Under the pieces are notes generated by a model. It was not told the DNA's origin, ran no database searches, and was given only the letters and a program-made list of their open reading frames with translations. The translations under genes were made by a program, and so were the position numbers. Positions 1,401-34,640 of a stretch of DNA of 64,000 nt are shown one piece after another. The stretch's first letter is position 1; every line of letters starts with the position of its first letter. This stretch comes from Tetrahymena thermophila SB210. Its lineage: Eukaryota; Ciliophora; Oligohymenophorea; Hymenostomatida; Tetrahymenidae. The stretch is from NCBI RefSeq assembly GCF_000189635.1, contig NW_002476463.1, positions 372,001 through 436,000 of the forward strand. The letters run 5' to 3'.

Positions 1401-1739
1401 GAATATAATAAAAAAATATTAAGTGTTGTTAGACAGGTTCTAACTTAATAACCAAATTTTTACTAATTTTTAGAATCAATTACTTAAATAGAAGAAAACC
1501 AATTTAATTTTTTTTTTATTTTTGAATTAATAAAGCGATTGATTGGATTTAAAAATATTGTAAAAAAAAATAAATATTTCAAATAAAATTAAATATTTTT
1601 TTATATTGAAAACATAAATATTTATTTATTTATATTTTTAGCTTTGTATAAACAATTTTAAAGTCTTTAAAAAAATTACAACATGGTATAATATAAAAAA
1701 TAAATTATTTAGATTATAATTATCGTTTTTACATACTAT

Positions 1740-2000
1740 TTTTCCTAAATTTTTTGTAACACTGTGTAAAATTTTGAAGTATTTGCTTTTCTTATGCTAT
1801 AACCATCAAATTGATTTGTTCTATATATTAATATTTGTTTTTAATTTTAGAGTTTTAAAGCCATAACTTTTCAGAATTCTTCATAAAGCGATTGAATATT
1901 TTTTGCAGATTTTTAATTTATTCATATAAAATGTTTGAAACAACTTCAATCACTAGAAATTTCCCTTTATATTATTGAAATTCAGTTAAAAAAACTAATC
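1740..2000 (-). pseudogene. Remnant of the 240-residue family gene
   Basis: The minus strand matches the 3' part of the intact gene at 9964-10742, including the region coding the L-K-N-S...W-L...S-K-I-K core. It then jumps, near 1910, to sequence equivalent to about 10410-10490, so the middle of the gene is deleted. What follows corresponds to about 11240 onward, so exon 1 is also gone. It cannot encode a family protein. It shows that copy A of the duplication once carried the same gene as copy B. Confidence 0.6.
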
Positions 2001-4289: not shown

Positions 4290-5900
4290 CCATGAGTAAG
4301 CTAAACAAAACAAAATAGAAATGCCAAATAATAAATTGCTATTAAAGATTTTGATAATATTTTTGATGATCTTAACTAAGACATTTATAGAATATCAATT
4401 ATTAGGGAAAATGAAGCTAATGTGAATAAAAAAATAAAAATGAAAGAATTAAAGTAGGTTTAGCCTTTTTAAAAAACTTTAGCACAGAATAAATATTAAA
4501 AATGGCAAAATAAACTTTCATATTTAAACTATATACTTTATCTATATTCAGTAAAATTTATGTGGTGGATCATATTATGCTTTTAAAAATAGCAGATCAT
4601 AAACAGAGCCTCTAATTTTAAAGCACATTTTTAATGAGGAACTATTGCTGATCATGAAAAAAATAATGAACTCTAAATGATTTAAAGAATAATTTAATAC
4701 TTAATAGATCCATATAAATAAAATTTTAAACATTAAAAATGTTGAAAAGCTTGCCAGCAATCTTACTAATAAAAAATATGGACCTGTTTTTAAGGAAAAA
4801 AAGAATATGCTATTAATAAAAAAGTGGTGATTTAAATTATTATTTTTTGATTATTTTTAATTTCAAAAGTTAATTTTTTATATTCAAATAGACAAATGAC
4901 TTTGGATATATTTTAAAGGAATTGGATAGACGATAGTAACAAAGAGATAACATTTAGAAAGATGAATATAGATTTAATTAGTGGTACATGAACATATTGT
5001 TAAAGAATGTCTTAAAAATAGTCACCTATGGATATCCATTAAAAGCCTTTCGAGCTATAGTTTCAGCTGAATCAAAGTGACAGTTATGATAGATACAATT
5101 TAAAGCTATAATCCTCTTTACCCTTTAATAGCTCATAAAAATATGGTAGGTTGAAAAATCAAGTAAGATTTAATTAATCTCTAGAAATGCATTAATTGTG
5201 TATATATATTTAAAGGAAAATTTTTTAAACTCTAAATCATGATCTTAATTTACTGACTTAATTTATCATTTATTGTAAAAAGTAAATAATTTGCAAATTT
5301 TACATTTTCTTTTTTTCTCTATTAGGCTTACACAATTTCAGTGAGCAGAGCGAAAAGGACTACAAGTAAAACTATTTGAGAAAGTTGCTGTAAAGGGGTA
5401 AGTAAAGACAATCATGTATATAAAAAGATTAATGAATCTAAGGCATTAATCAGTTAAGCAGTTAACATTTTTAAACAATATATGGTGAGGAATTAATTTT
5501 GAAAAATGATGCATATGCAGAGATTTCAGATTTATTAACTTTAGATATAGTAGTTGAAAGGGGTTCATTAATTAAATTTATAGTGTATTATAATTGTTAC
5601 AAATAAATATGTCAATAATCATCCATTTTTGGCAGATTTTTATATAAATATACCTTTTAAATTTAAAGTTTTAAGACTTTGGTGAGTCAACAATAAATTT
5701 TTAATATGGAAATTAGGTAAAAATAAACGTTATCAATTACTAAAATTTTATTACTATTTAATGATCTTGTAAATTAAGAAAAAGTTTTTTGGAGAAAATC
5801 ATCCTATTAGTGATGATACTTACACAAAATAACTAGTCAATCTAAGTTATTTAAATTAATTACAATAACTAATTGTAAGGTAAAATTTAAATATTGAATA
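4290..5900 (+). pseudogene. Decayed TPR-type gene, copy 3 (diverged)
   Basis: From the ATG at 4291 onward several frames give protein-like pieces. A piece around 4565-4835 reads with few stops (Cys-Gly-Gly-Ser-Tyr-Tyr near its start, Leu-Ala-Ser-Asn-Leu-Thr-Asn near its end) but has an in-frame TGA about 4677. Positions 5040-5150 match about 8060-8170, and 5310-5650 match 8730-9080, the TPR-like part of the family. Frames change between pieces by more than introns can explain. I read this as a third, older copy of the same gene. Whether the 5' piece belongs to the same gene is inferred only from order and strand. Confidence 0.45.
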
Positions 5901-6165
5901 ATAATTATATAACTTTAATTTGTTTTTTAAGAATTGCATAAAATAGCTTTAAAAAAATCGAGAAGTACTGATAGTTTCGAAAATAATATCATCATATCAT
6001 CCTTAGATGCAATAATGCAATAATTGAAGTATTTCATTTTCTATATTTTTAACTAATAATACAGATGAATTTTTTCTCTCCAATTTTAAAGTCTAAAAAA
6101 CAAATTATAACATCTATTTAACAGAAAAAATAAACTATATATATAATAATAATAATTTCTTCATG

Positions 6166-6926
6166 CTATTTTTCCTCAACTTTTTATAGCAATTTGTAAA
6201 AGTTTGAAGGATTTGCCTTTCTTATGCTATAACCATCAAATTCATTTATTCTATGTACTAGTCTTTGTCTTTAATTTTAGAATCTTAAAGCCATAGTTTT
6301 TCAGAGTTCTTCAAAAAATGATTAAATATTTTTTCAGATTTCTGTTTTTACTCAAATTTTTTATCTTGAGATTGAATCTTCCGAATATTGCCAAATTTGT
6401 AGAAACCCTATGCTTAATGTGCTCAAAAGTCCACTTATCTTCACTCAAATTTTCATAAAAGCTCATCAAGAAAGTATCTTAGCACTCAGTAATATGTCTT
6501 TTAAAGGCTGACAAAATATTCTTATACAAATTATGTTTACTTTTTGATATTAAATTAAAAATTTATTAATTTTCTAAATTATTGACTCCCTTTTATTCGC
6601 AAAGAATACTTGACACAACTTCAATCATGGGAGTTTTTCCTTTATATATTATTTTATTTCAGCTAAATTTATAATTAATATTTACTTAATCTTTCATTTT
6701 GATTTATGCATTTTGTTTTTGCCATATGACTCAGTTTTTTAATTTAGTTCGGAAATTTATTAATATAGTCCTTATATTAATCAAATGGTATATTCAAATA
6801 TATTTGAGATTATTATTTTAATTATTTTCTATACTAACAAGTATGTTAGTGTAAATAATCATCCTCATTTTATTTCATTTATTAAAAGTTTTCTTCTGTT
6901 TTAGCAAGAAAATGATAGTTAATCAT
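6166..6926 (-). pseudogene. 240-residue family gene broken by a 1-bp deletion
   Basis: Exon 1 (6926-6686, Met-Ile-Asn-Tyr start) and a 46-bp intron (6685-6640) match the intact gene at 9964-10742 in position and phase. Exon 2 then stays parallel, including the segment K-H-N-L-Y-K-N-I-L-S-A-F, until about 6330. There one base is missing relative to the intact copy, and the frame runs into TGA at 6311-6313. Beyond that the sequence still encodes the L-K-N-S, W-L and S-K-I-K core in the shifted frame, down to about 6166. An assembly error is possible, but 6040-6170 has also diverged and lacks the expected stop. Most likely a recently inactivated member. Confidence 0.65.
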
Positions 6927-7936
6927 AATTTTATATTCCAAAAAGTAAGTTTAAAAATAATTTATATTTGATAAAGATTATTTTTATAATTATTATAAAA
7001 TCTTCTCTAACTCTTCAATTTCTGTTTCAGCAATACAATATACATCAAATAATTGATTTTTGTTATTTTTTAATTAATCAATCCAATCCCCTCTCTTTTT
7101 GAAAAATAAAGAAAAAACAGCTGAGTTATTTTGTTTTTAATATCAATCTACCAAAAACCTTACCCAACTTTAGAAATTTAATTTAAACAAAATAAATAGA
7201 ATTTATTATTTTAAATATATAAATTATCTATTATTATATTTTTATTTTTATAAAAAAACATTAAAATATTTTATTATTTTTATCTTTTCAATAATACATA
7301 AAATTTATTTTACAAAATATTAAAAATTTCCAAAATGTGTTGAATAATTAATATACTGTGAATATAAATGGTTTACATTTATCACTACCTTCATTATTTA
7401 TTTCCAGATAATTACAAAAACCTGAAAATACATATACTACTTTATGTATAATATAAATTTGAAATATTAATCATAAAACTCAATAAAATAATCAATTTAA
7501 TTTAAATTATTTTTTAAATTCTAAAAAAATGGGTAAAAAATTTTTTAAGTTCAAAATTTGAGGAAAGGCATTAAATGTTATCAAAAATTTGTTAAATTTT
7601 GATAAAAACAGAATAATAAAAGCTATTCAAATAATGAATTAGCAAAATTAGCTTAAAATCATAAAAATGAAATAAAATATTGGTGACTTTACCTAAAGAA
7701 ATATTAATTATTTTCAAAGTTTTAAATAAAACTTTGTATTTTAAAAAGAATTTTAGATATTATTCTATCAAGTTTAGTTAGAAGAAGAAGAATATTTCAA
7801 ATTATATAAATAAGCTCTCTCTTACAAATACTATAAATTGGTAAAAAGTTGTTTACATAGCTATTTTTTTAATTATTTTTACTTTCTAATGTTAATTTTT
7901 TGTATTTAATTTAGGTAAATTATTATTGATAAAATA
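6927..7936. other. Gene-free spacer
   Basis: Very A+T-rich with no convincing frame on either strand. Positions 7450-7540 resemble 3690-3780, which suggests both lie at equivalent boundaries of older duplicated units. Confidence 0.5.
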
Positions 7937-8379
7937 ATGGAGATTAATAAATATATAAATTTCTAACAGTTGAAAATGGTTTTATCTTAGTTATACACCA
8001 AAATATTATTAAATAAAATCTCTATAATAGCTTAATTGTGGTTAATCATAAAGTACTTTTAATATTAAGATATCAGCTGGATGAAAGAGTTTGATATGAT
8101 AGATGTAATTTGAAGTTATAATTATCTTTTTTATTATTGCTGGCTCATCAAAAATAAAGCAGTTTGAAAGAAATTTTAGAGAAACAAGAAAATTAAATAA
8201 AAGAAAATTAAGAATTCATGAAAGAAACTAAGTGATTGCTTGGTTAATTTATTAAATTTGGCAAAAGCAATAGAAAAAAAATTAGAAGAAATATTAAAAT
8301 TTCTTTTAGGATAATTTAATTATCGAATTATATTTATAAACTCATTGCGCTTAAAATCAATCTTTTATAAATGGAAATA

Positions 8380-9800
8380 ATATATTAAACTATTCAAGAA
8401 GATTTAAGAACATGCTTGGAGAATTGGTAAAAGTAGATTTAATGGATAATAATATCCAATTAACGCTTACTGTTTGATTATTTTTCCATAGGCTGAATCT
8501 CTTAATTCTTATTTTGAATGAATGATGAGCTTAATATCTTATATATTCTTATGTAATCAGAAATGAGTTACTTATTAATCGTTTATAATAACCACTTTAA
8601 AACCTTAAGAATGTAAAGGAGATTCAATTGATATCAAGAAATACACGAATGGGTAAAATAAAAATAGTTTTTTATAACTTGAATTAAAAAAATAACAATT
8701 ACGTAATTCTCAATTACACAATTTAATAATTAAGTTTAATATTGTTTCAGTGAGCTAAGAAAAAAGGACTAGAAATCAATCTGCTTGGGAAAATTACTTT
8801 AGAGTTAAGTAAAAACTTTGATGTTGACTAAGCATTTAAAGAATCTTACTGATTGTTCAGCAAAGCAGTTGAGTTTTTAAAACAATTTATTGTCAGGAGT
8901 CAATCTAGATAATTGTAGTAGATAGCAGAAATTGCAGATTTATTCAGTTGAAAATATCAGTTGAAAGACTCCTACCAATTAAAAAAAAGTGCATTTAAAT
9001 TTTCTCCATATTGTGATAATCATCCACTTTTGGCTCACTATTATGTATGTATATATATATATTTTATATATGAGAAATTCTAAAAATTTTGATTACAATT
9101 TGACTTTTTAACTAAAGCTATGGAAATTAAGATAGTCATCCTTTAATTGCTGGCACTTACATAGAGCGGGCTAATACCTTAACTTAATTAAATTACAGTA
9201 AGAAGTTAAGATTTGAATTTTGAATAAACTATTCTGTGATTTAAATTTCAACTATTAGAGTTACATAATATTGCTTTTAAAATTCCTAAAAAACTTTATG
9301 GAATAGAAAATAGAATTACATTATCATTTTTAGGGGAAGGTAAAAGAAATTTTTATTTTTTGTCATAAATTATCTTCTTTTAATGTAACATTTTTTTTTT
9401 TTGAGTAGCAGAAATTTGAAGAAGCATGAAAGTACTAATCTAAGATGATTGATTGATGGCAAGGATTTAATTTATTATGGCCATTATCCAATTTAGCTAG
9501 CTAATTTTTTGCAAAAGGTGGATATAAGAAAAGTCTTAGAAGAAGATGAGGTAAATAAGTGCTGAAGATGATGGGATTAATTAATTTCATTAGGCCACAA
9601 ATGAAGCACTGAAGTTTTGTTTGAATATTATAAATAATAATTAAGTTTTGTTAGAGAGGCTCTAACTTAATAATCACCTTATGACTAATTTTAGAATCAA
9701 TTTCGTAAATAGTGGAATAACGAATTTAGTTAATTTTTGATAATTGAATTCAGAAAGCAATTGAATTTAAAAATACTGTTAATGAAAAGAAATACTTGAA
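8380..9800 (+). pseudogene. Decayed TPR-type gene, copy 2 (best preserved)
   Basis: One frame from about 8758 to 9330 reads as protein with Leu-rich helical segments. It includes K-N-F-D-V-D-Q-A-F-K-E-S-Y, then N-H-P-L-L-A-H-Y-Y and later K-A-M-E-I-K. That spacing fits tetratricopeptide repeats of the kinesin-light-chain kind common in Tetrahymena. At least four in-frame TGA codons interrupt it, for example just after E-S-Y and after D-L-F-S. Matching sequence in copies 1 and 3 shows it was once a real gene. It lies convergent with the minus-strand family gene at 9964-10742. The exact start and exon limits cannot be fixed. Confidence 0.55.
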
Positions 9801-9963
9801 ATAACATTAAATTGTTTTGATAAAAATGCTTTTTATATTGAAAACATATAACATTTAGTTATGAAATTATTTATATTTTTAGCTTTGTATATTCAGTTTT
9901 AAAGTCTTTAAAAAAATGACAACATTAGATAATAGAATAATTAAGTTATTTATATTATAATTA

Positions 9964-10742
9964 TCATTTTTACATGCTATTTTTCCTATATTTTTTATAG
10001 CACTATGTAAAATTTTGAAGGATTTGCTTTTCTTATGCTAAAACCATCAAATTAATTTGTTCTATATATTAATCTTTGTTTTTAATTTTAGAGTCTTAAA
10101 GCCATAGCTTTTCAGAGTTCTTCAAAAAGTGATTGAATATTTTTTGCAGATTTCTGTTTTTACTCAGATTTTTAATCTTGAGGTTGTATCTTCCGCATCT
10201 TGCTAAATTAACAGAAACTCTTTGCTAAATGTGTTCAAAAGCCCACTTATTTTCACTCAAATTTTCATACACACTCATCAAGGAAGTATCTTTGCACTCG
10301 ATAATATGTTTCTTAAAAGCTGATAAGATATTCTTATACAAATTATGTTTACTTTTAGAAATAAAGTTAAAAATTTATTAATTTTCTTAATCATTAATTC
10401 CTTTTTATTCAAATAAAATGTTTGACACAACTTCAATCACTGGAACTTTCCCTTTATATATTATTGAATATCAGTTAGATTTTTTAAATAGTAACTAATT
10501 TATTTACTTAGTCCTTCATATTGATTTATGCATCTTGTTTTTGCCACATGACTCAATTTTTTAATTTAGCTTGGAAATTTGTTAATATAATCCCTATATT
10601 AATCTAGATGTATTTTCCAAGATATTTCAAATTATTAATATTTTCTATACTTACAAGTATTTTCATATTAATTCCCATCCTCATTTTATTTAATTTAATA
10701 AACGTTTTCATCTGTTTGAGCAAGAAAAATATAGTTAATCAT
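9964..10742 (-). CDS. Unrecognised 240-residue family protein, member 1
   Basis: I do not recognise the function. Two exons, 10742-10508 and 10451-9964, flank a 56-bp GT...AG intron (10507-10452). Splicing gives 240 residues ending at TGA, with no internal TGA. The N-terminal half is Gln/Asn/Lys-rich with L-D-Q-Y-R-D-Y-I-N-K-F. The C-terminal half carries the family core: K-N-I-L-S-A-F near the start of exon 2, K-W-A-F-E-H-I, a C-G-R-Y patch, then F-L-K-N-S, W-L-Q-D-S-K-I-K-N-K and a final helix-like stretch. No signal peptide, membrane segment or catalytic motif is visible. The start is the first ATG in frame and is shared with the broken copy at 6926. Plus-strand frames at 10608-10974 are antisense shadows. 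Confidence 0.65.
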
Positions 10743-13023
10743 TTTTTTAAATATAAAAAAGAAAATTTTAATAAAAGTTGTATTTATGTTTGATATTTAT
10801 TATAAAATCTTCTTTAAGTTTTCAATTTCTGTTTTAACAATAAATTATGAGTTAAAAAATTGGATTAAGTTATTTATAATTAGTCATCTCTATTTAAAAA
10901 TAATTAACTTAAAATATACAGTTGTTTCTTTTAAATTACATAATTCAAAAAAACTTAATGGCTTAAGAAATTAAATTTAAAATAATTCTGAAATTAGATT
11001 ATATTTACTTTTTTCAAAAAAAAAAAATATAATTAATTAGTGATTATTAACTTTTTCAACACCTAATATTAAAAGCTTATAAATTGCTTTGAGTTTTAAA
11101 TTAATAAGTAAACTGTAAATAAATGTAGATAATTTAATTAAATTAATCCTACCCTAATATTTTTCTTCCCAGCATATTTCAAATAATAATTATAAAGAAA
11201 TGATAATATGTATAGTCCTTTACATATTAATTTTAAATGATCTAATTAAAAAAGTTAGTCATTAATCTGATTTCCTAAATAAAATAAGCAATTTAGTTTA
11301 CATTATTTTTTTAATTTAAAAAAAATTAGTAAAATTTATTATTATGCTTACTAATTGCAAAAATAGTAACAAATAATCTTTATAATTAGATAACAAAATT
11401 TTTTTTTAAAACGATACTTATTCACAAAATTTAAATAGTAATTGAGGTTATTTAATTTTACTCTGCTTTTATGCCATAAAGCTTTTAAAAAAATAAAAAA
11501 ATAGATTTAAAATTGTTTTATTTTAGAATCTAAAATTATAATATTTTGTTATAAAAAAATATGATTTTTTACAGATATTTTATAAGTATTTTAAAAACGT
11601 GTTTACAATGAAGTCATAATAAAAATTTCAACTTGTGATTCTTCTCTTAATTCTTAATTCGCTCAGTATTTGAAAGCATATATATACATTTTTACAATAA
11701 TTAAATAAGAAAAACTTTAAATACTTTTTATAACTTTGGTTTTATTTTATTAATTATAACTTGCTATTAAGATAATAATATTAAATATTAAGTATTTAAG
11801 CTTATTTTAATTAATATTATCTATAATATTATAGGATAGATTTATATTTTTTAACATAATTTCACCAATTTTTATACGAATAAACTCCTATTTTTATACT
11901 ATAATTTATTAAAATAATTTATCATCCTCTTATTTTTGATTTAACACATATATAAATTGATATTCTAATTTAGTTTTAAAATAGATTTAATAGAACAAAA
12001 TAATTAAATCTAATATTTTTAAAATTAAATTAGAATTCAAACTATTTTCAGCTAGTGTATATATATTCATTTACTAAATTTCGGAGATATTTTTAAATTA
12101 ACAATAAATTACTTTATGTATCTATCAACATTTTTCTCAAAGTTTAAAAAATTTTTATTTTTCTAAGACAATTTAGCAAAGAAACTAATATTAATTTTAA
12201 AAATTATATAAAATAAATGCCCAATAATCATAATTAAGAACTATATTTGAAAGAAATGAAAAGAAAATTTAGAATTTAGTTCAAACCTATATTTGATTTG
12301 TTTCATAAGCATGATGAGAATTAAAGCCTACACTTATTTTTGTATTGACTGCAAATAAAAAATATACTTTAATTTTATTGATTCAAGTAGTGATATTTAT
12401 GGAAATAAATTAATCTTAAAATTTAAATAATTCAATTAGAAAAATTTATAAGTATTTTTAAATAGTTATCAATAATTAATTTTTGTGATAATAAATTTAA
12501 ACAAATAAACAAACATTTTTTTAAGCTTTAATCTTTATGGAGTGATTGAAAATTTTGAATAATCTTAATTTAATAATATATTATAAAGATAACCATTTAA
12601 TTATTATTATTATTATTATTATTATTTTAGAGGCAGGCATTCTTTTAAACAGAAGGTTTAACATAAATTAAATTATCATAGATATCGCCTTATGTTTATA
12701 TATAAAAGAAAATAAATATTGCGCTTGAATGTAAAGTGTTATCAGCCACTGGAAGAATTTTTAAATTTACATAAGCTTCACAAACAAATCAGTTATAACG
12801 AAAAGAAAAATTATAATAAATACTAGTAGCAATAATTATAATTGTATATATAAAGATTTAATTTATAAAATATAAAAATACTTTTTCTATTTTAAAATTG
12901 TAGGTAAAATAATTTAAATTATAATTTTTGCTAATTTATATTTAGTAAAACAACATTTTAAACTTTTATTATTATGATTATTATTAATATAGAAATAGCT
13001 TATTTTTTAATCTCTAATCAATC
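10743..13023. other. Gene-free stretch with conserved duplicated block
   Basis: Positions 11250-12850 match 2000-3700 of copy A but encode nothing recognisable. A short block at about 12650-12800 is particularly well kept in both copies. A (TTA)n microsatellite lies at 12601-12629. Confidence 0.55.
12601..12629. repeat. (TTA)n microsatellite
   Basis: About nine and a half perfect TTA units. The equivalent place in copy A (near 3440) lacks the expansion, so it grew after the duplication. Confidence 0.9.
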
Positions 13024-13828
13024 TCATGAACTAGCTAATTTTTTAAATTTTTTATAGTAACAAATGTTTTGAATTAAAATTTTCTTTTCGAAAGCGTTTA
13101 GGATCATCTCAATCTATTTTTTATATGATTCTTTATCTTTTATCTTTGAATGATCAAGCCAGAATTGATTTGAGTTTTTCAAAAAATATAAAAAAACTCC
13201 TGATAAATTCTCATTTTGGAATATGTTTCTAACTTTTAAGCCAAAACGACCACAATTTTAAAGGTTTTACTACACTCTTAGTTTAATTCTATCAAATGTC
13301 CAATCATCTTACGTATGAGACCGATATTATTACTTTTACTATTCATCGCATTAGTATAGAATGTGATTTTGAAACGCATAAATAAGGTTTTTGAAGAAAT
13401 TAGTTTTTGATTTTTATAGAAAATCAATTACTTCTTATTGCTTACTGTCATCATCATTTTCTAAAAATATTAAAAATATTAAAACAAATTAAAAAAAATC
13501 CATTTTTATTCTTCCTTAAATGTTCAGAAGAATCAATCACATTACCTTATTAAATCATCTAATCTTCATTTTATTACTCATATTCTTTCTTTGAATTGCT
13601 CTATTTTTCTTCCATAGAATCCAAGCTACCTATATTCTTCATATATTGATCGTAGTTCTAAAGAATAAAGCACTTATCTACTCTCAATAATTCTAACTTT
13701 CTGAATTAACAAGCTTTTAATTTCTTACTCTTCTTTTTGATTGTAGGGTTGAGTGGAAAACATATAGAAATTGGTAAAATAATTTTTGTATTTTTATCTA
13801 TCAGTTTGTACTTAGCTATTTTAGACAT
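13024..13828 (-). CDS. Unrecognised 240-residue family protein, member 2
   Basis: Function unknown. Exon 1 (13828-13546) and exon 2 (13460-13024) are joined across an 85-bp intron. Exon 1 ends one base into a codon and exon 2 supplies the other two, and the spliced frame gives 239 residues ending at TGA. The protein begins Met-Ser-Lys-Ile-Ala-Lys-Tyr, close to member 3. Exon 2 carries the core in the same order as the other members: E-V-I-D-F-L-Q-K-S-K, K-N-L-I-Y-A-F, W-T-F-D-R-I-K-L-R-V, C-G-R-F, F-L-K-N-S, W-L-D-H-S-K-I-K-D-K. The family is basic, Gln-rich and probably helical, with no visible enzyme motif. Shared length, intron phase and core argue for a functional gene. Confidence 0.7.
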
Positions 13829-16800
13829 AAAGGTGTTAAATGTTTGTATTTTTAGTTTACTTCGATTTTATTTTTTTACAAGCAAGATAATTTTTTTAAA
13901 TAAATTTTCTATATATTTCCAAACAAATCTGAGATAGGTTTTGAAGCTTCATAAGTTTTCATTTAAAATTCATCTTCAGCATCAATAAATATACAAAAAG
14001 CTTTATAAATCTATCTTTATTAGTTAGGTTCTCATAGACCTTATTTTCAGTAAAATAGGATAAGCAAAAAATTCAAAATCCTTATGATGAAAAATCAAGA
14101 AAAATTGAAAAAATATACAAATATTTTTCTATTAATTTAGTAGAATTATTTTAGATTCTTATTGCAATTTTATGACTAAAAAAAAGTAGGATGAATAAAA
14201 AATATGGATTTTTTATTGATAATATATTTTTAAATATGAATGTCCACTAATATTATTTACTGAAATTATCTTCAAGATTATTGGAAATTGAATGTAATGT
14301 AAAAAAAGTGATTTCAAAATAATATTTTTTAAAAATAAGTATTATTCATTTATAAGATTTTAACTTACAATGCAATTAAAATTTATCAGATACTTTTGAA
14401 ATTTAATTGTATTTTTACTTTTCAATAAAAGTAATTGATAAGTATGAAAGTGAGAAAGTATCATTTTTTAAATGAGGTATAAAGAAAAACTTACTACTCA
14501 ATTTTTGTAAATCTCCTATTTTCTGGGGCTTTTTACTTACAATTAAAAAAAAAATTGCCCAAAAAATAGCTAATATTATTTAACTATTTCTTATTTTAAA
14601 CATCAATCTAGTCTATAGAAAAATTATATTTGAAAAATTCAAGCAAAGTATGTAAACTTTTTTATTGATATATGTATATTTTACAAATCAAATAAGCACA
14701 ACATTCTATTTAGAAACAATATAAAAAAACATATAAAACTAACACATTTGATTCTAAAGTTGAAATTTATTGCTCCATATACTATTTTTAATATTCAGTA
14801 ATCCAATAAAATAGTGTAAATTCAAATTATTTTTGTAAACTAACTAACACAATTTGATTGTAATATTTAATCTCAAGTATTTTTATTAATATCAGCATTT
14901 ATTAGAAACAAAAATAAATTATTTTATACTGTAAGTAAAATGAGTATTTATCTCAAGTAAATTTAGTTTTTTTAGAAAAAAATTCATGAAATTTTGAAGA
15001 GTTGTGTAAAGAAACTTAAGAATTTTTCTTTGAATAGAAAAGTTAATAAATTAATAAATGCTCCAAACCAAAAAATTCATTTCAAACATACAACTAACTA
15101 ACCTACTCAACTAAGGTTTAATTTGTAAAAAATATCTGTATTAAAAATATGTATGATATTATATTTTTTTGAATTTTTTGATTTATAAACGACTAAAGAA
15201 ATGTAAATTGTAAACTTCATAGATAAACAAATTAAATTACAGAAATATTATAAATTCTGAAGTTAATCAATTATCAAGGTAAAGCTTATCAAAGTTATAA
15301 TTGATCCAAAGAAAATAAATAAAAAAGGTTACAATCATGAAAATTAATTATAATAATAAAGCTTGCAAAAGCTAACTTTAAATATGTTTTTAAATATTAA
15401 AATGTTAAGTTATTGCGATAAGTAATAGCGCTTTTAAAGTGTACATGAAACTTTATCAACATCTATTAAGTATCTAAAATAATTTAATCCTCGTCTAATA
15501 TAATATCTAATTTCACTCCTCTTCTATTTCTTAATAAGGAAATTCTGAAATGTTGCAATAATAAATTATTTTGTAATAATTATAGGCTATCTTAAATTAA
15601 TATAAAATTTCAATTTTTTACTTATATATTACACCTTTGTTGCTAATAAATTAGTTTCTGCTAATTCTAGAATTCATTTTAAAGCAATTCCTTTTAAGAA
15701 ATTTAACAATAAAAGTAATAATAATAATAACAACAACGAAAAAAAAGTGAGTATAAGACTACAATAAAAACTCTTTTCAAATGAGAGTTAGTTATCTTAA
15801 CTAAAAATTAGTATCAAATAAATACAGTTTTTGGTTATTTTTCGTACTAGAAAAATTTTTCATAAAAATTTGTTAAAAAGAATTCACTTATTTTTATATA
15901 GATGGATGATTACAATAAATATTAACTAGATATCTTTAATCACGAACTTAAATATTATTTTATTGTAATAAAAAATAAAAAAATACTTTTTATCCTTGAA
16001 TAATATCATTAGTTTTAATTTCAAGAATACATTCATTTTCTTTAAATTTTGTAAGCTAAGCAAGAAACTCAATCAAAATATTAAATTTTATCAATACAAT
16101 CACAAATAATTAAAAAATATAATTCAGTAAACACAATCATAATAAGGTGAATATAATAATTTGAATAATGTGAAATCTTTAAATTTTATGGACTATTTAT
16201 TTATTATCTTTAGTTATATATTTGCAAATATTAAAAAGTGTCATCAGTCATCTTACACTCACTCCATATATCCAAATTAATTTTGCGCCTTTAAAAATTA
16301 AAAAGACCATTTACTGTTTTTCAATTTTACTTTAAACTAACATTTATTTATTATTATGTAAATATCTCCAAATAATAATAAAACTATTTGAAACAAATTT
16401 ATATATAATAGATTTAATTTTGTTATTCTTAAATAATGTAAAGTATTATTTATCATCGGTTTGATTACAGTTGCTATTAGTGATGAAAAATTTTGTCTAA
16501 ATATCAAAAAAATTTTTATCACTGGGCGTTAGTTGCGTCTTTCAAAGCAATTATTTTTTAGAGTATATAAATTTATATGATTAGAATCAAATAAAGATTA
16601 ATTTATTATTTTGCTTTCTTTAATGAGTAAAATTATTGGCTGCTAGAATATATTTACTTATTTTTAACAAATTCAAATCTTTTTTAATCTAATTATATAC
16701 ATATAACTTTATTGATTGTAAAGAATAATTTAAAATAATATTTTTAATTTAACTTATAAAAATTTAAAAAAATTCAATATCATTCATCACACACTTAATA

Positions 16801-16835
16801 AATACTTTATAATGGATAGACATTAAAAAGTTTTA
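13829..16835. other. Gene-free spacer between family members
   Basis: A+T-rich throughout, without a frame that has coding character on either strand. The short minus-strand frame at 16337-16522 shows no family likeness and was not called. I see no repeats linking this spacer to the left-hand duplicated blocks. Confidence 0.5.
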
Positions 16836-17628
16836 TCATTCTTTTTAATATGATTCATTTATTATCTTTTTTTATTTTTTGTAAAAAGAAATATTTTAAA
16901 TAAGGACATTCTGATTGTAGGCGTCTAAAATCATTTTAATTTACTTTTTATACGAGTCTTTATTTTTTATTTTAGATTAGTCGAGCCATATTGAATCACT
17001 ATTCTTTAAAAATTATATAAAAACCTTAGATAAGTTAGAATTTTATAACAAATTCCTAACTTTTAAACTAAATCTACTACAATTTTAAAGGTTTTATTAA
17101 ACTCTAAGTTTTATGTGGTTAAATGACCAGCTATCTTAAGTTAGTTACTCATAATTCTGTCTTTGAGTTTCTGTGGTTTAGTAAAGTATGTGATTTGAAA
17201 AAGCGTAGAGAATATTTTTATAGAAGTTATTTTTAGATTTTTATAAGAAATCTATCACTTCTTTCTTCACATCTTCATTTTTAAAATTGTTTTTAATATT
17301 AATGCGAGTTAACAATGAGTATAATAAAAGTGTAAATTCTAATTAAAAAAATACCTTCATTATTAAAGGCTTATTTTAGTTCTAAATGTGAATGTGGGGT
17401 TGAAACCTATTTTATATCTTTTTTTTTAACAAATTTATTTATATATTATTAATAGTTTTGATCATTCATATTTTTGTCACATTTTTATAGCTATATAACT
17501 TTGTAAGAGCATATTTTTTCATATTTCTTCTTAGTCTTTTGAATTATTTTTACCTTAGATGGGCTAATTTCATGTTACTATTGAGAGCTTTGGGTATTTA
17601 TTAATCTATACTTAGCAATCTGGGGCAT
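16836..17628 (-). CDS. Unrecognised 240-residue family protein, member 3
   Basis: Function unknown. Exon 1 (17628-17355) and exon 2 (17281-16836) are separated by a 73-bp GT...AG intron of the same phase as in members 1 and 2. The spliced product is 239 residues. It starts Met-Pro-Gln-Ile-Ala-Lys-Tyr-Arg-Leu-Ile, parallel to member 2. It then has Q-Q-Y-I-N-K-F (shared with member 1) and the exon-2 core: E-V-I-D-F-L-Q-K-S-K, K-N-I-L-Y-A-F, W-S-F-N-H-I-K-L-R-V, F-L-K-N-S, W-L-D-Q-S-K-I-K-N-K. A 16-bp alternative splice would also keep frame, but the 73-bp intron restores alignment with member 2. It ends at the first in-frame TGA. Confidence 0.7.
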
Positions 17629-20299
17629 TTATTTTACAATTTTGAATTTTGTTTTGTTTCTAATAATTCTATGTTTTTTGATAGTTATTTTATAAAAAAA
17701 TGCAAAAATTAAATAGCGCTTATCTTTTATATAAACAAAAGCAATTGTAATTTGTTTTTGGTAAATTTCTTTGCTTATTTCTTAATCTTTTTCTAAAAAA
17801 ATAGCTATAATTTATTATAAGTAGAAATTTCTTTTTTACTTATAGTAAAATAGATAAAAATATTATCATTTTTAACATAGTTATTATGGTTTGACTATTT
17901 GCTTTACTTTGTTAACTTTTTTAGTTATTTTATAAATCTTCTTTAATATAATAATTGGATTGATTCTAAAATAATCCACCTATTCACTTGCTAATTATTT
18001 ATTTATTTATCTATCTATCTATCTGAATTTTGAATTTAAAAATTTTAATATAACTTGCTTGCTTAATAATTGCATGTGATGAATAAAACATATGGTTTTT
18101 ATCTTTTCTTTAATCTAAATTGTTTTATACTTCATTAGATTTGAAAATCAGATTTTCTTTCATTAAGATTGTTTGTACATTTTACAACAAAAAATACAAA
18201 ATTAATCCAAAACTTGATTTAATAATGAATTTTTATTTGCATACACAGTATTAAATAAGGCGAGGAAGATTAGTACAAAAAATATCATCTGCTTTACATT
18301 CAAATTGCATTTTAAAAAATTTTAGTGGATATGTAAATAAAATATTATCTAATTTATTATATGTTGAAATTCTGACTATTGATTTTCATTCATAAAATAT
18401 ATTTTTAAAATGAGTTAATAAAAATTAATAGTGTAACATGGTAAATAATATTTGGGTATTTAAATTTTGCATGGCTAAAAAAAGGAAATTAACAAAAAAT
18501 TAATTAAATGCATTTGTTTAAATTGAAAGGATATATAAGCTAAATACCTCTAAAAACTATAAATGATTATAATAAATTACACAATTTTTTAGTATTATTT
18601 ACAATTTTTAATTTTGTGAAGCGCATTGAAATTCTTAAATATTTTAAAATATTTATGTAAGTTTGTTTAAAATTTATATTTTTTAACACTCTTTTATAAC
18701 CCTTTTTAGATTACAAATAACTTTTTTAGATCTTTAGGATAGAGGAAAAACCACTATGAAATTAAGAAGAAAAAATTAGTCTTTTTAAGATATTATAAAC
18801 AAAATCTGATTATATAAAATAACAAATTTATATGAATAGAAATCAAAAAATAATTTGCTCTTGATAGCAAATAAATTTTTAACAATCGTAATTTAGCTAG
18901 TTTCTGCTTTTTTTGAAATTAATTTTTGATTTATTTTTATTACATTATTTTCATGGATATAATTTGATTAGACAAGCAAGAAATTTTAATTATTACTAGG
19001 CATACTTTTTGTTTTGAGCATGAACAGAGAAATTAACTATTATGTTTTGAGTATTAATAGAGAAATTAAATATCAAATATTATCATCAAATAAATTATAT
19101 TGAACAAATTGAATCTTTGAATTATCTTAAAAAGAAAATATAAAGACAAATGATAACACAAATATATCAAAGATAATGACGTAGCAATTTATTTATTTAT
19201 TTACAATACTATAAAAAACAATGATTATTAATTTTTAAAGTGAATTTAAACAAAAAAAATAATTTTTATTAATGAATTTATAAGATTTTTATTACAAATT
19301 TGACTGATTTTGATTATATTTAATCCATATTATAACAGTTTATGATAGTATTTTACTTAAATCATATTTATTTTTAAGAATTATTTAAATATATCCTTTC
19401 TATATCAAATATTTATCACTTTACAAAGGAGAAATTAATACAGATTTACAGATTTAAAATATAAATTCATTAAAGTTTATTTATTACTAGGCATACTTTT
19501 TGTTTTCAGTATTAATAGAGAAAATAACTATCAAATATTATCATGAAATAAATTACATTGAACAAATTGAATCTTTGAAAAAAAAATAATATAAAGACAA
19601 ATGATATTTCAAATGAATTAAATACAATGACGTATCAATTTACTTATTTACAGTACTTTATAAAACAATGATTATTAATTTACAAAGTCAAAATTAACAA
19701 ATAAAATAACTATTATAAGTGAATTTATAAGAATTTCAATATTTTTATTACAAATTTTACTGATTTTAATTATATTTAACTATATTATAAACGTTTTATG
19801 ATAGTTTTTTATTTAAATAATTATTTATTTAAATGAATTATTTAAATATATCCTCTCAACATCAAACCTTTATCACTTTACAAAGGAAAATTTAATGCAG
19901 CTTTAAAGATTGAAAATAATATAAATTCATTAATATACTGAAGGATCTTAATTAATTATCCATATCCCAATGGAAATAGTATTCAAAATTGAGTAAATTA
20001 ATTAGATGGGAAAAATATATTTTTTTAGGTTACTAATTACTCATTCTCTCATTTTTATAAAAAGCAAATTTCAAAGAAATTGACATAAAAATTTGCTTTT
20101 GATTTATCTTATAACTTAACTAGTGACATAATAAGAATTTATTTTTATAAATTTTAAAGTTATTTTTATAATAAATTATTTTATGGTATGGTTTGTGTTT
20201 AGTTATTTTTATATATATTTATTTATATATAGATAGATATATAGATATAGATATTTAAAATCCAATTGCTAATTAATTTGAATTTGTTTTTTATTTTAT
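17629..20299. other. Gene-free spacer
   Basis: Nothing recognised as coding. It contains the 491-bp tandem duplication (18991-19937) and short runs of TTTA/TCTA and ATAGAT units near 18000 and 20215-20260. The right end is the 3' flank of IFT172. Confidence 0.55.
18991..19937. repeat. 491-bp tandem duplication, two units
   Basis: The 20-base start of unit 1 at 18991 (tattactaggcatacttttt) recurs at 19482. The following 450 bases stay parallel, including the stretches near 19095/19557 and 19420/19867. Small indels separate the units. No coding frame is conserved between them, so it is a noncoding duplication of moderate age. Confidence 0.85.
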
Positions 20300-23200
20300 T
20301 CAATTTGGGGGATTATTGCACCAAGGACAGTTTGCAAAGTTTTATAAGTACATCGACCAATATTCTTTGAGACCTCCTTTTCCGCAACTTCTACAGTTAA
20401 CGAATGTTCCCTTTAAAAGAGGTTATCCTGTTAGGATACAAACTTCAGCCTCAGTTTTACATTTAGGACATGTTTGGCATCCTTCATATATTTAAGTTCT
20501 GCAGCTTTCACAACTACGGATAGGTAAGTCCTTTTCTATTTTAGAATTGCAACTAACTTCCAAAATCCAATTACGTATTCCTTCAATTTGATTTGAGTCT
20601 ACTAGGTTCTTTTCAGGAATGAGTTCTACTTAATAAGGAGATGGAATATCAGTATTTAAGAAGACTTAGTTATCTCCAGTATCAGCACTGTTAGGATCTT
20701 CTATGACTTCAAAGATATCTAAGTATCTATTTAAGATGACGAATGCATATGTGAGCCAGTTCTATTCATTAAGATATTTATTAATATTGTAAAAGATAAA
20801 GAAATTTAAAACATTTTATGAAGAAAATTATAAAGTCGTTTTGTTACTTCTTAAATATTTTGATAATGAAAAATATAATATAATATCAATTTAATTTAAT
20901 ATTTATTTAAAATTTTTACTTATTTTTTGCAAGCAACACCTGCATCATAGAACAATTTATCCATACGAATAAGATCTCCGTATCTAAGCATTGAAATTGA
21001 AGTTCTAGCATAAAGAGCACTCATATTTTTCTTTTCATAAACATTCTTTAGGTTTGCTAAGTGTGCTATGGTTAAGTACCTTTAGAATTATCTTCCTTCT
21101 TGAGACTAGTCTACTTTAGAGCCTTATAAGAGTTTGTAAAAGTTATATAAAGCAGTACGCAAGCTGTTGATTTCTTTAGGATCGCACTCAACAAATATTT
21201 CTAAGCAAAGGTTAATGTAATGCTTAAAGTTTTCAGGAATCAACTGCATGCCGTAGTGAGCATAGGCTTCAATAGTTTCACCAAATTTACCACTTTCCAT
21301 AGTAAATTTGACATAGCGTCTCATTATCTTGGCTAGTATTTCTGCACCCTGATTTTGAGCTGTGTCTAATGCCTATCTCCAATCTATGTTTAAAAATCAT
21401 AATATTTAATTTATAAATTTTGTAATTAATTAAAAATAATATTTTAAGCCTTAAAACATTTCATGTTATTTTCTGTAAAATGTTTGGCATTTTTTTATTT
21501 AAATAAATAAAAAAGCTAATTTATTGAATAAAATTATTATTTCATATTCATGTTAATTGTATGCAGAACATTTATCTTATTAAACTTAAAATTTAAGAAA
21601 ACAAAATTTTTTTGTTAGAACTATTAGAAATTAATTTTTTTTAATTTATAATTTTAAAATCAAATAATTTTGTTACCTCCTTTTTAAATCATCATTTCTA
21701 TAGCTTAGTCAACATGACCACCTTCAATCATACCTCTAGTATCTCCTGTGTTTTATTATTCAGTCATTTGAAGTTATTAGATACGTGCTATCATCTTCTA
21801 CTAGAACTTTAATTATTTTTTTTTTAAATTTGTTTAAATAAATTATTTCTGCACCAAAAATAAAAATTACACTAGGATTATTGACTTATTAGGCACATTA
21901 TTTAGCTTTGGCATAATTTCTTAATTCAAGATAAAGTTATGAAGCTTCTTAGTAGAATCCAAAGTTTTCATAAATATCAGCAGCCTAATCAGCTTTATTT
22001 AAATTTTATAATCCCTTTGCAACAATTAAGACAACTTCTTGCAATCTTTCCTTAACATAAGTTTAGGCAATTTATATAGCTTTATTCCAGACTGCTACCT
22101 AAATAAATTATATTTAAAAATCTTAAAAAATTCTTCTTAAATTTAATTTTTTTATTATTACAACTGTATTTTCATCACAATTTTCAGGAGTAACATTGAG
22201 GTAAGAATCTATTGCCTTGTTGTAATCTCTGCTATCTTCAGATACTCTAGCATTTTAGATATAGTCTTCACCAGTCATAGCTCCTCCTCTACCAACTTAT
22301 TAATGTTAAGAAGTAAGTTCTGAAACTAAATGAGGAGCTTCCTTTTTGGCTACTCTGAAGGCTTCTTACCAATTTTAAATATCCTTGTACATTTTAACTG
22401 CTAATTCTGGTTTCTTAGCCTGGATAAAGCAGTTTTCAGCCTTCTTATATTCTCTTTTTTCAATGAAAGTACGAGCTTAATTCATAAGAATCATGCTTAT
22501 ACTCTATTTTTAGTGTACTTTTGCTACCTATAATGCAGCTTAGAAATCACTCAAATGCTCATACATATTAATAGCTTCTTCAGGTTTACCTGCCTTAATA
22601 AAGTGTTCTTCAGCTTCCTTATATCTAAATATTTGATTTTATTAAATAAAAATTTTCTCAAAAATATTAAAATAAATAAATAAATAAATACCTTTTGTTA
22701 TCTTCAAGTTCAAATGCATATTTGAGGTGAACATCAGGCTTTTTATGGATAGCCTTTTGAGCCATTCTAAAAGCTTCATCGAATTCCTTTCTATCACAAA
22801 GATATTCAATGACAGCATCGATTAAATTGTATTTTAAAAGAATTTTCATACCAGCATCAGGACCCAAAGTTTCTGCCCATTATTTAGCAAGTTCACATGT
22901 TTCCTTATCAGATCCATAAAGCTTGCAGCATCTGACAGCATCTTCCCAATTTCCATTAGATTGATACATGTCAACAGCAGCATGCCAAGCACCAGCTTCA
23001 ATATAGTGATGTTCTGCTTATTTCAAGTTTCCAGCACGCTATAATCTTTGACCAATTTATAAATGAGTATCTCTTAATTATTTAGGTCTATATTTAGCTA
23101 CTAAACGAAGCATAGATTCATACTACTCACTTCTTTAATACATATCAATAGCACGATCATACTCATCTACTTAGCAGTAGAGTTTTTCAGCTTCCTTATA

Positions 23201-26200
23201 GAGGTTTTGTTCCTAGAATTTGATAGCCTATTTAACATATAATTAGACAATTTCAGTTTCAGGGAGATTTTCACGAGCAACACGTAAGGCATGCTCCCAT
23301 TTTGAAGCCTTGGCATACATTTCAAAAGCTTCAACAGCTAAGCCAGCCTTCAAATAATATTTCTCACCAAAATCATATTGACGAACATCAGCATAATGCT
23401 TAGCAATTTGTCTATAAAAAGGACGAGCCATTTCAGGACTTTAATGTTATAAAAGTTAGATTGCCTTGCTCCATTATCTTGAATTGATACTAGCTTCAAT
23501 GGCCTTTTAGAAAGATCCAGCTTCAATATAATGATTAACAGCACTTTCAGTTTACTTTTAGCTAACTAACCAATCACCACACCTCTCTTCTAATTCACGG
23601 CTATATATATAATTAAAAATTAATAACATTTGTGAAATAGAGAAATTTGATTTGAAAATTAATAAATAAAATTTCTTTAATTAATTAAAATATTTGATTT
23701 ATTAATTTATATTTTATTTTCCTCGTTTATTAATTTAATCTTTTTAATTTAAATTGAATTTCAAATAGAATTTTAATAATTTTTACACTAAATTTGGTTG
23801 AACTCTTTTAGCAAGATCGATTGCTTTTTTGTAAGAATTTCCTTCACGGTACATTTAGAGAGCTTTAGGATATTATTCCATTTATTCATAGAATTCACCA
23901 GCTCTTTCATACATTCCTGCGTTTTTGAGAGCTACAGCAATATTTTCGAGAATGTCCTAAGGGAAAGAGTGATCATATGTAAACACTACATTAGCAGCTT
24001 TAGCTGGAAGATTACCTTGTAAGTAGAGCTAGACAGCCTTGTTAAAATCTCTTTCATTTTCCTTAACTTCAGCAGCCTTTTTAAAATTAAAAATTAAATA
24101 AAATATTAGAACTTGTAAAATTTAAACTATACCTTAGCTTCCTACTTTGTCTTTAGAAGCCAAGTGTAATAATTTTCCTTGAGTTCTCTAACCTAAGGAT
24201 GGTTTTTCTTTTCAGCAATCTTAATTGATTCATCCCATTTATGGAGTTCCTAATACATTTCCATAGCTTCTTCAACCTCTTCATGATCTAATAAAATAGC
24301 TTCAGCTCTGTGGAATTGTTTATCGAGGATGGCAAGCTTAGCTTGAGCCTTGTAGTAATTGATACCTTCTTCACTTTCTCTGGCAAGCTTAGAAATCTTT
24401 CTTAAATAAGAAGCCTTGCAAATATCACCTAAAGAAGCATAACAGTGCTCAGCAACTATAATATTTTACTCTTCAAGAGCTAACTTAGATAATGTTTTCC
24501 AGTTAGCTTCTGTGTCAGCATTCATCTCTAATGGGTCAAGAATTGTAGCTGCTTTTTCAAGATCTCCTGATTCAATTGCAAAACCAAAGTTAATAAGAGA
24601 TTCATCTAAGCTGTAAGGAACTACATTATTTCCTTCATTTACCATCACATCAGTCTTACCTATTAATACAAATATTTTTCTTTAACAAATATTCAATTTT
24701 ATTTATTTATTTATTCATTTTATACCTCCATTTCTTTCAATAGACTCAACTTCTCCCTTAATGTTATAGATTGTGACTTTATCTGGATTTTCAATTGAAT
24801 ACCAAACACATAGGTTTTATCTGTTTTAAGCAACAACTACATCTGATTCAGGAACCCACTAAGCATAACTACAGTAACTGAGAAGAGTATTTTTAGTTTA
24901 AGTTTTGATATTATAAAGGTAGAGTTATCTTCTCTTGTCTCTAAACAAGAGCTTATTAGCATGAGTGTTAAGTTCTAAGAAATCAATTTTCGAATCATGA
25001 AGAATCTAACCAATATTTGAGTTACTCATGAGATCTTAAATGTAAATGGTTTGCAAATCTAAGAGATAAGCAATCATTTTAGTTTATTTCACACTGTGGT
25101 AGTTTAATCTAGCAGAAATTAAATTAGTTTTCATGTGCTCAGTTCTGCAGTTACCAAGAGGTTCATTGTTTCCATATTCGATCAAAGTCAATTCTCCACT
25201 GCTAAAAACCATGCAGACTCCTGGATTTGAAAAGTCATACTTTTCTTTACCATCATTTCTCCATGGAATTTCTGAGCATTTATCAACTTCTAAATCAGCT
25301 ACTATGATAGTATCATAAGTATTACCAACTGCAAAACGGTCCTAGAAAATGTTGATTTTGGTAATTTCAGCACCTTAGGCACTTCTAACAACAGATTTTC
25401 TACCAGATGATAATGTTTTGACTACAATTTATGAAGGAGACACATAATTCAACTCAAACTTTCCCTTATAATTAATCATTTTAAATGAGGCATTGTACCA
25501 ATCAACACTTCCGCAAAGAGAACCAGTTACTAATTTAGAACCATCGTTTTTCCATGCAAGAGCTGTAACAGTATAATAATTTTCAATTTATTTAACACCA
25601 ATTTCTTCCCAGAGACTTCTTCTGGAGTTGTAATGATAGATATAAAATCTAACATATAAAAATATAATTGATTTACAATTCAAAAAAAAAAAAATGAATA
25701 AAAGAAAGAAAAAGTGAAACAAGCATTCAAATAATTTATTTGCATTGAAATAATTGATTAATAAGAATAACTTAAAATGATGATTTAGTTAGTATTTATT
25801 AATATTTGTTAGATAATGATGATGATGATTTTTTATTATTTTGATTTCAAATAATTTTTAAATAGTCACTTCCTAATTAAATCTTTCTTCTATATAAAAA
25901 TATTATTCTCCTTAAGCTGTCTTATTTTCTTTCATCCAATATATTATCAATTTAAAATAGAATTCTTTTTTTGCTGTTTAAAATAGCATTTTAATTCATG
26001 TTTTACCTATTGAAGTTGCCTAAAACAACTGTGTCGCCAGATGGGTTGAATGCGGCTATAGTGAATTCTCTTATTTTATCATCATTTGTATAATCAAAAC
26101 GTTAAATATGATTGCCATAAGCATCGTAAAAAGAAACCTTTCCATCATTACCAGCAGCGACAACATGTTCTCCCCAGCCTAAAGCATATGGGATTGAATG

Positions 26201-27325: not shown

Positions 27326-28586
27326 TTCTTTACTTTATAAAATTAAAGCAAATACCTTTATTATTTCTTTTTTATTTTATTTTTTTATTTTTTTTCTTTT
27401 TTAAAAATTTGAAATTTATTCAATCTAAAAGATTAAAACAATGAATCCTCTCTTTGGAAATTAGTAATTGTTTGTGTTTCTGAATGGCTTTATTTTTTTT
27501 TTATGCATTCAAAGATTCTTGTACATGAAGTACTATTTCAATTAATAATCGAATTTGTTTAATGGTTAACTCAAAATTTTAAAAATATTCTTTCAAGATA
27601 GATGATCTATAAATACTTAATTTAATTTTTGAGTGTAGCTTTTCAAAAAATAATTTTAAGAATTATTGTTTTTTTTATAAAATTTAAAATATTAAAAACT
27701 AGTTAAAGACATATTAACCTCTTTAAAAAAACATCATTTTAAAGAAAAGCCTTAAAATTCATATTTAATATAATTTATACTCTTTTTACAAAACAAAAAA
27801 ATCATTTTTTAGATCTTTAAAAAGAATTTAGAAATATTAAATTTAATTTAATTGATTTTAAAATAATCTATATTTATAAATTAAAGAGAGTTATTTAGCT
27901 ATTATTAATATAAACTTGTAAAAATTTTTTAATAAACAACAAACTTAAAAGATTTGAAGAAATATATTTTAATAAATGTATTAAAATTTTATAAATAAAT
28001 AAATAAATAGAGCTCTAAAATTTTGAAAATATTTATTTGATTGATTTATTATAGATAGATTAATATCTTTTTGAGTAAAATTTAAATCATATTAAAATTA
28101 ATCAAATTTAAAAAGAATGAAAATTTAAAATGGAAAAATTAAATGACAAACATAACACGAATAAAATTAACAACTTTATTTTACGATTAATCATTATCAT
28201 TCAAATGTGCAAATAAGAATTTGATTGATAATTAATTAAGTTAGTTGCTTGGTTGTTCAAGTTAAACTAATTCAATTAAAAAATTAAATGACAAAGCAAT
28301 TAATTTAAGTATAAATATTGGTATTTATCAAACAAAGATATCAATTTTTGAATGTAAAAAATTTTTAGGTGATAGGCTGATAAATTAAATAATACTAATA
28401 CATTTGAGAAATTCAAAAATAAATAGGTCTGTCTCCTTGACTTTCTTTTAGCTAAACTACAATACTATAAAAGCTTAACACGTTTATTTATCTATATCAA
28501 AAGTTAAATCTATATCTTAAAGTAGAATAAGTAAATTTAGAAATACAATTGTAGAGATCCTAAACTATATTTAATTAGCAATAAAT
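27326..28586. promoter_or_regulatory. Divergent intergenic region, IFT172 / FHA gene
   Basis: The 1.26 kb between two divergent start codons must contain both promoters. It is extremely A+T-rich. No motif could be assigned with confidence. Confidence 0.45.
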
Positions 28587-34300: not shown

Positions 34301-34640
34301 AAACAATATAGACTTTGAATATAATGACCAATTTAGTTATAAAAATATGAGAGTGCAAGTAAATGTAATGAAGAAAGAAGCAAGCAAAACTGAAAGTTCG
34401 AAAAACCTTGAGTAGATCTGCCTTGAAAGAAAATTTGTTGTAGAAAGCCTAATTGTAAAAATAATGAAATCCAGAAGAAAGATGGAACACTAAGAATTAT
34501 ATCAAGAGGTAGCAAGAATATCTTAGTAGCATCTTTTTTTGCCAGATTAATAAACAGTAAAACAATGTGTAAACTCACTTATTAACAGAGATTATATTCG
34601 CTTATCTGAAAATAAAGATTATTTATAATACGTTGTTTGA
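31354..34640 (+). CDS. Cullin (ubiquitin ligase scaffold)
   Basis: Cullins hold the substrate adaptor at the N-terminus and the RING protein at the C-terminus of cullin-RING ubiquitin ligases. Four exons, 31354-31989, 32245-32846, 33116-33848 and 34257-34640, keep frame across all junctions and give 784 residues, the usual cullin size. Exon 1 carries the N-terminal repeats (I-F-L-Y-L-D-N-N-Y-V, M-I-D-K-Q-R-L-G-E). Exon 3 holds the cullin homology core (Y-I-D-E-A-F, L-A-K-R-I-L, L-E-C-G-T-V-Y-T-K-K-M). Exon 4 holds the winged-helix tail with I-V-K-I-M-K-S-R-R-K-M, which contains the neddylation lysine, and ends R-D-Y-I-R. The N-terminal half is closest in feel to CUL3, but the sequence is divergent and I do not assign a number. 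The minus-strand frame at 34333-34578 is a shadow. Confidence 0.88.

Follow-up and report, generated by a model that had tools for sequence, protein, structure and literature searches.

The window, a stretch of 64,000 nucleotides of the Tetrahymena thermophila genome (C91:372001-436000), covers the right end of an array of tandem repeats about 71 kb long, which begins near C91:318,400, about 54 kb to the left of the window, rather than the cluster of three genes described in an initial annotation. The repeat unit of about 4 kb is a convergent pair, consisting of a TPR gene on the plus strand and a gene of the Pfam family DUF4441 on the minus strand. Given that the second exon of the DUF4441 genes is constrained in subfamily A, the main subfamily discussed below, whereas the TPR copies are broken and carry almost no coding signal, we conclude that the DUF4441 gene was kept by selection and its neighbour was let decay. 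The explanation that we tentatively prefer, based on sequence comparisons, is that the tandem array grew in the germline, that selection acts on the DUF4441 proteins and not on the pair, and that these proteins may be an intracellular, perhaps nuclear, binding module.

Results

Three DUF4441 genes in the window

Members 1-3 are related genes on the minus strand, located at window positions 9964-10742, 13024-13828 and 16836-17628 and read leftwards, and for each of them a GT-AG model with one phase-1 intron was obtained, in agreement with the initial annotation. Member 1, which is array copy A11, has a 240-aa model with exon 1 at 10508-10742 (donor GTAAAT, phase 1) and exon 2 at 9964-10451, the latter being under purifying selection. 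Member 2 belongs to subfamily B and its exons at 13546-13828 and 13024-13460 are separated by an 85-nt phase-1 intron; the resulting model of 239 aa is the one phase-1 model that lies within 8 residues of the length first given. For member 3 the initial annotation also gave 239 aa, but no GT-AG model of that length exists and no 73-nt GT/GC-AG intron closes the frame. The nearest phase-1 model, with exons at 17355-17628 and 16836-17272 and an intron of 82 nt, encodes 236 aa. In all three genes exon 2 contains the DUF4441 domain and ends with a TGA stop.

The initial annotation took the exact closure of the spliced frames as evidence that these are real genes. This argument does not hold, since with TAA and TAG read as Gln there are 64 GT-AG combinations that close the frame of member 1, and frame closure is therefore poor proof of a real gene. 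On comparative evidence members 1-3 are real genes, and this evidence is the better one: dN/dS of exon 2 differs in and out of frame (see below) and the splice sites are shared, with a donor and an acceptor at the proposed intron position in all nine open subfamily A copies. The donors in these nine copies are at 220, 232, 235 or 241 nt and are all phase 1. A second acceptor (TGAAG) is likewise present in 9/9 copies and the exact exon junction in subfamily A is thus ambiguous.

All three proteins matched PF14536 (DUF4441), with 89.9, 93.7 and 89.6 bits (E = 1.7e-25, 1.1e-26 and 2.2e-25) for members 1, 2 and 3, respectively, compared with a curated cut-off of 24 bits for the whole-protein score. 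Nearly the whole 116-position model was matched in each case (positions 2-116, 2-116 and 1-116). The family, initially described as unrecognised, has consequently a Pfam entry that its core matches at E 1e-25 to 1e-26, and a strong match of the core to a known domain was what the initial annotation had named as evidence against its reading, although the domain is one without known function. Regarding the core motifs listed there, members 2 and 3 have a clear EVIDF-type segment, which is loose in member 1 (NQQIFNFI), and the other motifs are present in all three.

In almost every one of the 50 members examined, the domain is C-terminal or close to the C-terminus. The window members have short N-terminal parts, whereas other members have long N-terminal frames, and a scan of 10 DUF4441 proteins, among them nine with long N-terminal frames, found no second Pfam domain at E 0.01. 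An NCBIfam scan of three proteins gave a single match (E = 0.052), and PHROGs gave scattered weak matches for DUF4441 members, the best being 2.3e-4 for 1 of 43 members. None of 24 pattern matches in IMG/VR (query: member 3 exon 2) and none of 33 in GTDB genomes (query: the member L051) were confirmed. DUF4441 was absent from all 14 control genomes, a result of little weight given that the two named ones are bacteria and the set was taken as prokaryotic. In the literature searched no paper naming the family as DUF4441 or PF14536 was found, and the same was true for IPR027871, which we take to be another number of this family.

A tandem array of convergent gene pairs

When member 1 was used as a DNA query against the genome, 17 places were found, all on C91 between 322,485 and 382,742. 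The region C91:300001-400000 contains 11 long subfamily A copies (A1-A11) and five fragments, as well as three copies of subfamily B, of which two are good and one is degenerate, plus member 3. Self-comparison revealed long repeats, for example 325,483-329,625 versus 367,585-371,778 with 4,385 aligned bases at 75% identity. The repeated stretch carries the TPR gene on the plus strand, and its end is reached shortly before the stop codon of the DUF4441 gene, which lies to the right on the minus strand. Nine of the 11 long subfamily A copies are open, A4 being broken by an insertion in exon 1 and A10 (6155-6926 of the window, minus strand) by a frameshift in exon 2. A10 is the broken copy that the initial annotation had placed to the left of the three genes, and the remnant reported together with it, which derives from a subfamily A copy, is located at 1723-1988 (minus strand), outside the span given at that time.

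The insert in A4 (about 105 bp, C91:337,830-337,936, within locus L012) is flanked by terminal inverted repeats with a G-run, GGGGGGGTCACAGCYGGGTG. This repeat is found at 8 sites on 6 contigs, two of which carry it as an inverted pair with a spacing of about 80 bases. The insert has the appearance of either a miniature transposable element or an oddity of the assembly.

The TPR gene matches PF13424 and PF13374. Of 20 matches to it in the genome 19 were inside the array and the remaining one was weak (E = 1.7e-4). By grouping of pieces, with a stray piece at C91:345,202-345,315 left out, 13 TPR copies were counted. Only the leftmost copy has kept an open frame over five exon-like blocks, and the other 12 are broken, with 14-29 frame-breaking indels and 0-10 in-frame TGA codons each. 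Three of these decayed copies are located on the plus strand of the window: T13 (7939-9691), which is convergent with member 1 and has 10 in-frame TGA and 26 frame-breaking indels relative to the open copy; T12 (4892-6017), which is convergent with A10 and has 16 frame-breaking indels and no in-frame TGA; and T11 (1-1484), which starts just left of the window and has 2 in-frame TGA and 14 frame-breaking indels. Other DUF4441 clusters have no close relative of the TPR gene beside them, which makes the pairing local to this array. That TPR and DUF4441 form an obligate pair was ruled out on these two grounds, the absence of TPR relatives beside other clusters and a single open TPR copy among 13.

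Expansion by duplication is a feature shared with other tandemly duplicated Tetrahymena families, such as the LRR genes, and tandem duplication has been described among species-specific genes, with TPR among the commonest domains of such genes (PMC6564038). Seven domains are named in that account, of which DUF4441 is not one, and the present array differs in that its unit is a two-gene pair of which one gene has decayed.

Two further features of the window were observed. At 18981-19918 there is a direct repeat of two copies, with pieces 77-93% alike and a period of roughly 450-490 bp. To the right of the array there are conserved genes, with TPR_IF140-IFT172 and IFT80 beta-propeller matches at 22661-25995 (minus strand), an FHA protein at 28041-30647, a cullin at 32904-34637, a poly(A) polymerase at 41240-42463 and a weak helicase HA2_C match at 62023-63168 (minus strand).

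Selection on the two partners

The dN/dS values were calculated with the Nei-Gojobori method, using shifted reading frames as control. Among the nine open subfamily A copies (36 pairs), exon 2 gave a median dN/dS of 0.23 in frame versus 1.10 and 0.90 in the shifted frames, at a median dS of about 0.44. For exon 1 of the same copies the median was 0.67 in frame versus 0.56 and 0.58 in the shifted frames; length changes in exon 1 stay in frame, even though no amino-acid constraint was seen. The family had initially been called fast-evolving, and this fits exon 1 but not the C-terminal domain, which is under purifying selection. The 12 decayed TPR copies, compared with each other (65 of 66 pairs, those with at least 150 codons), gave 0.72 in frame versus 0.77 and 0.93 in the shifted frames. 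Judged by these substitution patterns, exon 2 is constrained protein sequence and the TPR copies are hardly so. With the open copy as reference, the dN/dS values of the TPR copies were 0.25-0.45, which alone would suggest constraint and counts against decay, but given the high value among the decayed copies themselves we read it as the constrained past of the open TPR lineage.

One alternative, possible although we think it rather doubtful, is passive tandem turnover, in which the DUF4441 proteins have an ordinary cell function, the copy number of the array is neutral, and unequal crossing-over generates copies that are lost at random. The five fragments and the one degenerate copy among the long copies, the two broken ones out of 11 long subfamily A copies and the decay of all neighbouring TPR copies but one are as this explanation would have it. 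However, the median dS found in exon 2 corresponds to time enough for neutral copies to break like the TPR copies did, and yet 9/11 subfamily A copies are open with the low in-frame dN/dS given above. This argues for our preferred explanation, in which the DUF4441 proteins are the target of selection, although selection on copy number or variety itself would be expected to look the same as purifying selection on single copies.

DUF4441 genes in the genome

A six-frame search of the 101-Mb assembly (445 contigs), very probably that of the macronuclear genome, identified at least 150 DUF4441 places in T. thermophila, all above the cut-off; this number is a lower bound, since 150 of 176 candidates were scored, and includes exon pieces and possibly pseudogenes. 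Grouping at gaps of at most 25 kb gave 69 groups on 57 contigs, of which 16 had three or more members and together held 90 places. In 15 of these 16 clusters all members were on one strand, compared with about 2 expected by coin toss. The clustering and common orientation reported for the window were thus not only confirmed but had been understated. The only mixed-strand cluster is C113:148742-159978, in which the odd member has an in-frame TGA. The arrays at C187:1439-36685 and C381:3821-29088 start within 4 kb of a contig end, and these starts may correspond to the ends of chromosomes or to repeats in which the assembly was broken.

In a tree of 49 of the 50 DUF4441 domains (the frameshifted A10, locus L041, was left out) the 10 subfamily A rows grouped together as a clade (100/99), and a second clade (100/97) was made up of member 3, member 2 and the sister copy of member 2. 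Each of these two array clades had a different member of a cluster on C17 as its nearest relative (95/90 and 92/82), which indicates that the array is composed of two older lineages, one of which has expanded. This small C17 cluster (C17:1351671-1362832), holding the nearest relatives of both lineages, is perhaps the sister of the ancestral cluster.

An invariant motif in a basic domain

The motif N-x-x-K-N was invariant in 49/49 domains and in 33/33 representatives below 60% identity, and F27, F87, L91 and W98 (member 3 exon 2 numbering) were kept in 48/49. Given a mean column identity of 26% in the domain alignment, the invariant polar residues point to a binding or active site in addition to requirements of the fold. 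The pI of the domain was above 9 in 43/43 cases, although this may simply reflect a lysine-rich proteome encoded by an AT-rich genome. K[KR]x[KR] was found in 30 of the 49 domain exons (shuffle mean 22.5), a number reached by 11 of 500 shuffles, which is no probability because the exon rows are related; by manual count, 25 of the 30 occurrences are in the C-terminal tail. The NLS-like signal is modest and comes from related sequences.

The surface role that had been considered for such clustered families found no support. The highest 19-residue hydropathy mean in members 1-3 was 0.49-1.05 (Kyte-Doolittle), which is below the usual threshold for a membrane helix. The Ser surface antigens of T. 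thermophila are described as cysteine-rich and GPI-linked (PMC4136848), whereas members 1, 2 and 3 have 5, 6 and 3 Cys and a hydropathy maximum of 1.05. Our best guess, a weak one, is that the DUF4441 protein may be an intracellular, perhaps nuclear, basic binding module. A more specific version, in which these proteins would be ciliate-specific regulators that bind DNA or RNA sequence-specifically, with N-x-x-K-N in a recognition helix, the variable N-terminus as a regulatory arm and tandem expansion like that of zinc-finger families, we regard as improbable as it stands.

A DUF4441 paralogue in a complex IV model

A profile of 43 DUF4441 domains was compared with PDB chains and matched one of them, 7w5z_U5, at E = 1.4e-28, identifying it as a DUF4441 protein; six other chains gave E = 0.35-0.62. 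In a phmmer search with member 3 no PDB chain was better than E 0.2, and members 1-3 were not found in a solved complex, the profile finding only their paralogue U5. The U5 chain (172 aa), labelled 'uncharacterized protein', is letter for letter over its whole length the product of locus L066 (C127:231310; L066:824-1339). This is a distant paralogue of the window genes, with 20% identity to exon 2 of member 3, and is located in the other half of the DUF4441 tree. The U5 sequence is present in one PDB entry only (7w5z). As a control, a SURF1-like protein of the same genome gave one distinct sequence present in 7w5z, 8b6h, 8bqs, 8gym and 8gzu, the last four of which we take to be later models of the same complex. 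Because four entries share the SURF1-like chain but do not have the U5 sequence, we count the mitochondrial lead as weak; U5 may have been dropped or renamed in these entries, or the assignment of a DUF4441 protein to this chain may be wrong.

It appears unlikely to us that DUF4441 proteins belong to the mitochondrial respiratory chain as ciliate-specific accessory or peripheral components, with the array as a source of subunit variants. The profile match and the full-length identity of U5 speak for it, given that 7W5Z is described as the T. thermophila complex IV dimer (PMC10227065, PMC10060162), and the placement of one DUF4441 member in this complex counts against a nuclear location. Besides the restriction of U5 to one entry, a later paper on the megacomplex states that poly-alanine models were built for ciliate-specific subunits, which were then named from BLAST searches with letters derived from the density (PMC10227065), a procedure that can misassign and by which 7W5Z itself was likely built. 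In addition, acidic residues are abundant at the N-terminus of L066, in contrast to a presequence, and at least 150 genes exceed the needs of one peripheral subunit.

Discussion

The explanation that we prefer starts from a comparison of the copies, which shows that a tail-to-tail unit of about 4 kb, with TPR on the plus and DUF4441 on the minus strand, has undergone many duplications, all in the same direction. The TPR copies have almost all turned into pseudogenes, whereas purifying selection has continued to act on the C-terminal domain in most of the long DUF4441 copies. The array probably grew by unequal crossing-over in the germline and the target of selection was presumably the DUF4441 proteins and not the pair. 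With less support, the basic C-terminal domain, which from its sequence is probably helical, may contact one constant partner, e.g. nucleic acid or a fixed protein, through the invariant N-x-x-K-N, the conserved F, F, L, W and S that follow and a basic Y-K-K tail, and differences between paralogues may be carried by the loosely constrained N-terminal part.

Genetic conflict, with the genes acting in defence, mating or self-recognition, or the TPR-DUF4441 unit being a former two-part selfish or recognition module that has lost one part, would fit the one-strand tandem arrays, the unconstrained exon 1 and the convergent two-gene unit, but is very improbable given that the domain is under purifying selection with none of 55 exon 2 pairs from all 11 subfamily A copies above a dN/dS of 1, that the 11 of 54 defined exon 1 pairs above 1 have few sites and are no more than the shifted frames suggest, that the pair is local to one array and that members 1-3 have no hydrophobic segment typical of surface proteins.

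As a family DUF4441 is already catalogued, and what is new is the extent of the array and its unit, the different fates of the two partners, one kept and one lost, the motif without exceptions and the doubtful identity of chain U5 of 7W5Z. This chain is part of a published model of a respiratory complex, and its identity can be tested by means of the DUF4441 family. The array serves as its own control, in that two genes were duplicated together and one was kept and the other lost, which places selection on DUF4441. With at least 150 genes in a model organism, an invariant motif and no paper that names it in the literature searched, the family represents a large blind spot.
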